A stretch of 36,741 nucleotides of DNA, taken from NCBI GenBank assembly GCA_003551155.1, contig PUMA01000091.1, forward strand, positions 1 through 36,741, in the 5' to 3' direction. The translations under genes were made by a program, and so were the position numbers. Position 1 is the first letter of the stretch, and every line of letters begins with the position of its first letter. The notes under the pieces were generated by a model. That model saw only the letters and a program-made list of their open reading frames with translations. It did no database searches and was not told where the DNA came from. This document shows positions 10,783 to 18,767 of this stretch, in pieces. This DNA is from Desulfonatronospira sp. (GTDB lineage: Bacteria > Desulfobacterota > Desulfovibrionia > Desulfovibrionales > Desulfonatronovibrionaceae).

Positions 10783-10814
10783 TGTGACTGCAAAAATGAC
10801 TTTTTGCAGTCACA
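10783..10814. repeat. perfect 14-bp inverted repeat with 4-nt loop
   Basis: TGTGACTGCAAAAA (10783-10796), loop TGAC, then its exact complement at 10801-10814. Neither side has a run of T typical of an intrinsic terminator, and both flanking genes point away from it. It may be an operator, an extragenic palindrome, or a leader structure of one of the divergent transcripts. Confidence 0.7.
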
Positions 10815-10907: not shown

Positions 10908-10940
10908 AATAATTTTTAAACAAGGAGGAAGCTGAATATC

Positions 10941-11243
10941 ATGTTTGAACTAAGCGATACTGCCAAATCACAATTGGACAAATTCTTTGAAACTCAGGAA
11001 AAGGCGCCCATAAGGGTGTATCTGGCTGCCGGCTGAGGCGGTCCCCGATTGGCACTTGCTCTGGACGAGCAAAAGAACAATGACAACATTTACGACGTCA
11101 AGGGATTCCGGTTTCTGGTAGATAAGAATCTTATGGAAACAGTAGCTCCTATTGAGCTGGATATGACCGAGGGGGGATTTGTTATCCGCTCAAGTCTGCA
11201 GATGGCGGCAGGGGGGTGTTCTTCCTCCTGTTCTACCTGCTAG
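10941..11243 (+). CDS. HesB-like selenoprotein (UGA at codon 32 read as selenocysteine)
   Basis: The gene is 100 codons from ATG 10941 to TAG 11241-11243 with one in-frame TGA at 11034-11036. Read through, the product matches the A-type iron-sulfur carrier (HesB/IscA-like) fold: IRVYLAAG-U-GGPRLALALDE, where U occupies the first conserved cysteine of the family, and a cysteine-rich end, GGCSSSCSTC. Both sides of the TGA code for one continuous domain in the same frame, so a nonsense mutation is unlikely. HesB-like selenoproteins are an established family in deltaproteobacteria and some Firmicutes. A stem-loop suited to SelB lies 20-36 nt after the TGA (listed separately). GGAGG at 10924-10928 is the ribosome binding site, somewhat distant. 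An intrinsic terminator follows. Function is unproven; a role in metal or Fe-S handling is inferred from the fold. Confidence 0.88.
11034..11072 (+). promoter_or_regulatory. selenocysteine UGA with candidate bacterial SECIS hairpin
   Basis: After the UGA (11034-11036) comes a perfect 6-bp stem, TTGCTC (11056-11061) with GAGCAA (11067-11072), closing a 5-nt loop TGGAC. The loop GG lies 27-28 nt downstream of the UGA. Bacterial SECIS elements lie inside the coding sequence just after the UGA and usually show a short upper stem with a G-containing small loop at about this distance, so the geometry fits. SelB binding is inference. Confidence 0.75.
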
Positions 11244-11270: not shown

Positions 11271-11298
11271 GGCCATGTCCCCGGGCGTGGCCTTTTTT
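11271..11298 (+). terminator. intrinsic terminator after the HesB-like gene
   Basis: GGCCATG (11271-11277) pairs with CGTGGCC (11286-11292), seven pairs including one G-U, with an 8-nt loop and six T immediately after. It lies 27 nt after the stop codon. Confidence 0.75.
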
Positions 11299-11347: not shown

Positions 11348-11635
11348 ATGCAGTGCGATACGATAAAAAAGGGAGTTGAATGTACTTTTATGACTCTCAG
11401 GGGTTGTGCCTACAAGGAAGGCCAGTGTTATCCCATCGTGGAAAAGTGCAATGGATGTGACCGGATAGAGGAATTCAACGGCCAGGTTTATTGCAGAAGC
11501 TATGCTGAACCTGCCATGAAATGGGATCACAGTGCCTGTAATTTCGCCACCCATGTGCAGGCAACAGTGGACAAAAGCGGTAACATCAAGATCAACCCTC
11601 TAAAGGCATCCAAACGAGCAGCCAAGAAAAGGTAA
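11348..11635 (+). CDS. PxxKW family cysteine-rich protein
   Basis: A 95-residue cytoplasmic protein with eight cysteines (3, 12, 20, 27, 34, 37, 49, 64) and the motif PAMKW at 55-59 that gives the family its name. The family is recognised mainly in sulfate-reducing deltaproteobacteria and its function is unknown. The cysteine spacing (C-x2-C at 34-37 and others) suggests metal binding or disulfide chemistry, but this is inference. GGAGG at 11336-11340 is 7 nt from the ATG, an ideal ribosome binding site. It is flanked by terminators on both sides, so it is probably its own transcript although no clear promoter was seen. Confidence 0.85.
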   Translation: MQCDTIKKGVECTFMTLRGCAYKEGQCYPIVEKCNGCDRIEEFNGQVYCRSYAEPAMKWDHSACNFATHVQATVDKSGNIKINPLKASKRAAKKR

Positions 11636-17662: not shown

Positions 17663-18767
17663 ATGATTCAGCTCTCAGATTTAAAAGCCCAGTCAGATCA
17701 GGTACTGGAGCGTTTTTCCTCCCTATGGGGGCGCCTTTGACCTGGATAGACAAAAGCAGCGGCTCCAGGAAATCGAACATGAACTGGCCAAGCCCGGAGC
17801 ATGGGAAAACCATGAAAAACTTACCCCCATTCTAAAGGAAAAAAGCGGCCTGGAAGATGAGATAAAAAAGTTGTCCGAGCTTAAGCAGCTCCAGGAAGAA
17901 GTCCAGGAATGGCTTACTTTTGCTGAAGATGAGCAGTCCCAGGAAATTCTGGATGCCTTAAAAGACAGCCTGATTTCATTGCGCAAAAAGCTGGAAAAAA
18001 TCGAACTTGAAGCCTTTCTGAGCGGAAAGGAGGACAAGCATTCCGCAATCATGGCTATTCATCCCGGTGCGGGAGGTACGGAAGCCCAGGACTGGGTGGA
18101 GATGCTTCTGCGCATGTATATCCGCTGGGCGGAAAACAGCGGTTACCAGGTGGAGTATCTGGATTTTCTGCCCGGAGATGAAGCAGGGATTAAAAGCGTA
18201 ACCGTACAAATCAGCGGAGATTACGCTTACGGGTTGCTCAAAGGTGAAAGAGGCATACACAGGCTGATCAGAATCTCTCCTTTTGATGCTTCGGGGCGCA
18301 GGCACACCTCTTTTGCCTCAGTGGATGTCTTTCCCCAGATATCCGACGATATCAATATCGAGATCAAAGACGATGATCTGCGAGTGGATGTTTTCAAGTC
18401 CAGTGGCCCAGGCGGACAGCATGTCAACAAAACCAGTTCAGCCATCAGAATAACCCATCTGCCTACCGGAATTGTAGTCCAGTGCCAGAGTGAACGGTCG
18501 CAGAGGCGTAACCGGGAGGCTGCCCTGAAAATTCTCAAGGCCAAACTGTATGACCAGGAAATGAAAAAAATCGAGGATGCAAGACAGGAAAATTATGCAG
18601 CCAAAGACAGTATTGCCTGGGGCAGCCAGATCCGTACATATACCCTTCACTCTTATCGATTGGTAAAAGACCACAGGTCCAATGCTGAAACTTCTGATGT
18701 TGACGGTGTTCTGGACGGAAATCTTGACGAACTGATCCGCAGTTACCTTTTACATGCCCACAGTTGA
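17663..18767 (+). CDS. prfB: peptide chain release factor 2 with programmed +1 frameshift
   Basis: RF2 releases peptides at UGA and UAA. The gene is in two frames: 25 codons from ATG 17663 up to an in-frame TGA at 17738-17740, then 342 codons in the +1 frame from GAC at 17739 to the stop at 18767, giving 367 residues (E. coli RF2 has 365). The slip site is CTT-TGA-C, with GGGGG at 17727-17731 acting as an internal Shine-Dalgarno sequence, the same spacing as in E. coli. The stop-recognition tripeptide SPF (RISPFDASG) identifies RF2 rather than RF1, and GGQ (SGPGGQHVNK) is the catalytic motif. Because the UGA is read by RF2 itself, the protein limits its own synthesis. It is not a pseudogene. 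Confidence 0.95.
17727..17741 (+). promoter_or_regulatory. prfB +1 recoding site
   Basis: GGGGG (17727-17731), three spacer bases CGC, the slippery CTT (17735-17737) and TGA-C (17738-17741). The peptidyl-tRNA on CUU re-pairs with UUU and GAC is decoded next. Confidence 0.93.

Follow-up and report, generated by a model that had tools for sequence, protein, structure and literature searches.

Reading frame and recoded UGA codon

In our study, the window (the whole stretch of 36,741 nucleotides that was analysed) was found to contain, at 10941–11243, a gene that very probably yields a functional bacterial selenoprotein of the HesB/IscA-like type, with UGA decoded as selenocysteine (Sec). The gene runs on the plus strand from the ATG at 10941 to the TAG at 11241–11243 and, when TGA is translated as Sec, encodes a protein of 100 amino acids with Sec as residue 32. 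Only one in-frame TGA was present, at codon 32, and a single domain was encoded on both sides of it, as an earlier preliminary description had claimed. Translation with table 11 gave two pieces, one of 31 amino acids (10941–11036) and another of 64 amino acids from the TTG at 11049. The preliminary description had also expected that standard annotation would miss the full gene; this holds for naive ORF callers, although a dedicated family model is already in place at NCBI. Desulfonatronospira MAGs are near relatives, with an identity of 87–91% in the Sec protein. In the proposed mechanism, SelB with Sec-tRNA(Sec) would bind the hairpin listed in Table 1 and Sec would be inserted at the UGA, giving a 100-residue protein of the A-type-carrier fold, whereas without selenium the translation would stop after 31 residues.

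Table 1. Features of the HesB-like selenoprotein gene and its flanks.
Feature	Position	Strand	Evidence
Shine-Dalgarno-like AAGGAGGA, 11 nt before ATG	10922..10929	+	read off the sequence
Predicted HesB/IscA-like selenoprotein gene	10941..11243	+	translation with TGA as Sec (U); NF038090 match; orthologues with the same TGA
UGA codon 32, predicted to be read as Sec; position of the first conserved Cys of IscA	11034..11036	+	homologues; profile alignment to solved A-type proteins
SECIS hairpin of bacterial type, with TGGAC as apical loop on the stem TTGCTC/GAGCAA	11056..11072	+	91/91 Sec copies; covarying pair; fold
C-terminal Cys tail CSSSCSTC (C93, C97, C100)	11217..11240	+	three Cys kept in nearest homologues; pLDDT <50
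Likely intrinsic terminator 3' of the Sec gene, between the Sec gene and the PxxKW gene	11271..11298	+	fold −15.7 kcal/mol, z −3.5

Family assignment and predicted fold

The Sec-read protein matched the curated NCBIfam model NF038090 (IscA_HesB_Se) with 104.2 bits against a cut-off of 85 (residues 1–95 on model positions 1–101), and the earlier assignment to the HesB-like selenoproteins was thereby borne out. The cut-offs of the other models were not reached by the Desulfonatronospira protein, which scored 40.9 against 66.35 bits for HesB_rel_seleno (TIGR01911), 23.9 against 150.6 bits for the IscA equivalog and 24.7 against 117 bits for the ErpA equivalog, and fell slightly under the cut-off of Pfam PF01521 (23.1 against 26.3). 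A profile built from 27 relatives matched, among the solved structures, A-type Fe-S carrier-like proteins only. In the profile alignment the TGA position coincided with the first conserved Cys of these solved proteins, in agreement with the earlier claim that the UGA occupies the place of the first conserved Cys of the family. The AlphaFold model of the Sec protein had a pLDDT of 80, with values below 50 for the tail residues 89–100. Its top Foldseek matches were IscA 1x0g and 1r94 (E ~5e-6, TM ~0.6), with SufA 2d2a lower among the top matches. On this model, the Sec protein is predicted to have the A-type carrier fold.

The SECIS hairpin

The hairpin that had been described at 11056–11072 with the loop TGGAC was found with exactly these coordinates and this loop. 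The RNA fold proposed earlier supported the 19-nt stem-loop alone (−7.1 kcal/mol, z −4.0) but not the whole region 11034–11080, where the folding energy was not unusual (z −0.33). As the energy-only test on 11034–11080 was not significant, the case for a SECIS rests on comparative evidence. The Rfam search over the window gave no match.

In all 91 distinct Sec orthologues the distance from the U of UGA to the start of the loop UGGAY was exactly 28 nt, and the hairpin was present at the same offset in 91 of 91 distinct Sec orthologues against 4 of 69 distinct Cys homologues. In five Sec copies an equally long upstream hairpin was listed first by the script, and the conserved stem was there too. 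The residues Ala-Leu-Asp-Glu were encoded by GCT CTG GAY GAG in 91/91 Sec copies, and many synonymous codons were used by the Cys copies encoding the same residues. One stem pair was kept as G-C, U-A and C-G across 21 diverse Sec copies, where the silent third base of the Leu codon tracked a later codon for Pro, Gln or Arg. This pair showed 8 cells with both sides changed (0 of 500 shuffles were as high) and a covariation score of 0.244 against a maximum of 0.063 with the partners slid; the covariation was confined to this pair, three of the six stem pairs being invariant in the 21-copy set and so uninformative alone. Taken with the fixed codons, the covarying pair is a sign that the RNA structure itself is under selection, in addition to the protein it encodes. 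By this comparison of sequences, the hairpin at 11056–11072 is a conserved SECIS under selection, and the contrast between the Sec and Cys copies strongly supports the view that the UGA hairpin acts as an RNA element within a coding sequence.

An intact SECIS-like hairpin was retained at the Sec-form position in the Cys forms L071, L085, L089, and L094. These hairpins are probably fossils of a recent Sec-to-Cys conversion.

Selenocysteine machinery and other readings of the UGA

The source assembly (2.0 Mb, 94.5% complete) was found to contain selB (378.5 bits), with selA (606.5 bits) on the same contig, a tRNA-Sec (79.8 bits, anticodon tca) and a selD gene with its own in-frame TGA, read as GAGUASK. 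Two formate-dehydrogenase-like (fdhA/Fdh-alpha) matches with TGA were also present, and one exceeded the cut-off of its family. The check for selA, selB, selC, and selD proposed earlier was thus positive, with selA, selB, selD, and tRNA-Sec all in the same assembly. Given this set and the TGA-bearing formate dehydrogenase genes, Sec decoding is expected in the organism, and the earlier claim that it makes Sec agrees with this.

The DNA gives the reading frame only and not the residue, and the UGA might be read by a suppressor tRNA, as a reassigned codon or by programmed readthrough with another amino acid. We consider this highly improbable, since a release factor of the RF-1 type carrying the RF2 frameshift signature is encoded in the window, the genome has tRNA-Sec and SelA/SelB/SelD, and the hairpin goes with the UGA copies and has been lost from nearly all Cys copies. 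Alternatively, the TGA could be a former Cys codon (TGC or TGT) turned into a stop by mutation in a pseudogene, or a sequencing error. Only one base change would be needed and Cys homologues do exist, but this explanation is already refuted by the same TGA in orthologues from many independently assembled genomes, the full conservation downstream and the invariant hairpin. The evidence for decoding as Sec (the machinery, the conserved SECIS and the Cys homologues) is computational but strong.

The prfB gene of the window (ORF 17871–18767 and upstream) is an RF2 gene with a classic programmed +1 frameshift at 17735–17740 (CTTTGA). A GGGGGC tract lies upstream of the site CTT TGA C, where the zero frame (...SSLWGRL) stops; the +1 frame goes on as DLDRQKQRLQEIE. 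The frameshift site is a second recoded UGA in the window.

Comparison with known HesB-like proteins

Previous studies counted 11 HesB-like selenoproteins in 2006, in D. vulgaris, G. sulfurreducens and others (PMC1794560), and found DVU_1382 of D. vulgaris in 2007 through stop-codon mining (PMC1914089). They are also listed as a family with the motif UxGP (PMC13188914). In Methanococcus maripaludis, a HesB-like selenoprotein was identified through mutagenesis and 75Se labelling, according to work cited in PMC11097638, and a disruption mutant of the Methanococcus hesB-like gene was viable and retained nitrogen fixation (PMC11097638). The model name NF038090 was not found in the literature searched. 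As the family has been known since 2006–07, the Desulfonatronospira gene is a further member of a known selenoprotein family, and a clean added example of one that is widespread.

The HesB-like selenoproteins of Desulfovibrionales (e.g., DVU_1382) are alike in the UGA at the first family Cys, the (U/C)-x-G-P motif, the length of about 100 amino acids, the Cys-rich C-terminus and the order of bacteria. They differ from the Desulfonatronospira protein in sequence divergence only, the tail being CSSSCSTC in Desulfonatronospira and CSSCTSC in those proteins. The canonical IscA, SufA, and ErpA have the fold and the position of the first Cys in common with the Sec protein, whereas the latter contains Sec for Cys and a tail of C-x3-C-x2-C for C-x-C, the C-terminal motif of IscA, and lies far below the cut-offs of the IscA and ErpA models. 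Archaeal Sec insertion depends on a SECIS of a different type and place. In the methanogen HesB_rel_seleno proteins (TIGR01911) the HesB-like fold is a related one and Sec likewise occupies the UxGP motif (PMC13188914), but the Desulfonatronospira protein is below the curated cut-off of that model.

Distribution of Sec and Cys copies

A gene of the NF038090 type was found over the cut-off in 15 of the 18 genomes of the family Desulfonatronovibrionaceae and in 262 of the 297 genomes of the class, and most of the matches listed in the family and class genomes carried exactly one TGA. In some genomes there was also a Cys form, which has Cys in the place of Sec. Homologues had earlier been proposed as a check on the codon-32 position, and Cys or Sec was found there. 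In many Desulfovibrionales the Sec copy directly adjoined a Cys copy, in about 35 of 80 named loci (e.g., L050–L058, L066, L067, L072, and L073). In these tandem pairs the Sec copy was usually the first and the spacing was mostly 40–250 nt. No report of such Sec/Cys tandem pairing was found in the open-licence literature searched. The tree of the Sec and Cys copies contained about 20 state changes, at least nine of them forced by supported branches, with too few columns for the deep forks; the number of changes argues for repeated Sec/Cys switches.

At five tandem loci of Solidesulfovibrio-like genomes a third copy without Sec or Cys was present. Paralogues that adjoin the Sec copy and lack both Sec and Cys at the active position were found at L051:6444-6752, L052:5868-6161, L107, L110, and L113. 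Examples of their sequence there are FLSFMDAAGPRLDLA and PRGSKGPHLVLG, and the paralogues form two separate groups.

Possible function

There is roughly an even chance that the protein handles metal or Fe-S clusters through Sec32 and the three clustered Cys residues of its flexible C-terminus (C93, C97, C100). The first conserved Cys is a cluster ligand in IscA. The protein might instead be a thiol/selenol oxidoreductase forming a selenylsulfide between Sec32 and a Cys of the tail, which we regard as a real but less probable possibility. Sec is indeed accompanied by a Cys-rich tail, and redox functions are suspected for the majority of the prokaryotic selenoproteins that are still uncharacterised (PMC13188914). 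However, the fold is that of the A-type Fe-S carriers, and the position of Sec is that of their conserved Cys and not a known redox site. Two points tip the balance slightly towards metal or Fe-S handling and away from the redox role, namely the fold and the failure to find a canonical A-type carrier in Desulfonatronovibrionaceae. Counting against a functional assignment are the result that no neighbour is common to the different lineages, the viable and nitrogen-fixing Methanococcus mutant (PMC11097638) and the low model confidence of the Cys tail.

In the 18 Desulfonatronovibrionaceae genomes no canonical protein was found that reached the PF01521 cut-off, whereas 9 of 14 control genomes have one; the search is of limited sensitivity, as the Sec protein itself was missed in its own genome, and divergent members can therefore be missed. 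Two NifU_N proteins were present in the own genome. The search suggests that the Sec protein is the sole A-type-like protein in Desulfonatronovibrionaceae. A bolder proposal, which we consider rather unlikely, is that it would be the main A-type Fe-S/metal carrier of the family, with a selenolate ligand and hence selenium-dependent Fe-S trafficking. If so, the Sec and Cys proteins encoded in tandem in other Desulfovibrionales would form heteromers or be isoforms switched by selenium. Since canonical A-type carriers seem to be missing from these genomes and relatives have Sec and Cys copies in tandem, the role of the family can be tested in laboratory strains of Desulfovibrio.

Gene neighbourhood and terminators

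The gene of a Cys-rich PxxKW/DUF6811 protein (11348–11635) adjoins the Sec gene throughout Desulfonatronovibrionaceae, where the gene order HesB, PxxKW, M20 peptidase, MnmG is kept. The context with PxxKW and M20 peptidase was seen only in this family (26 loci, some of which are the same place twice), and no neighbour common to the HesB-like Sec gene across lineages was found. The PxxKW protein was rejected as a functional partner because a terminator-like hairpin separates the two genes and the neighbourhood is restricted to one family. The term 'PxxKW' was not found in the literature searched.

A strong hairpin was also found upstream, at 10783–10814, with 14 pairs and a T-rich tail (−14.7 kcal/mol, z −5.8). 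It lies between an aminotransferase gene on the minus strand and the Sec gene, with no obvious plus-strand gene upstream, and could represent a terminator or else a small repeat element.
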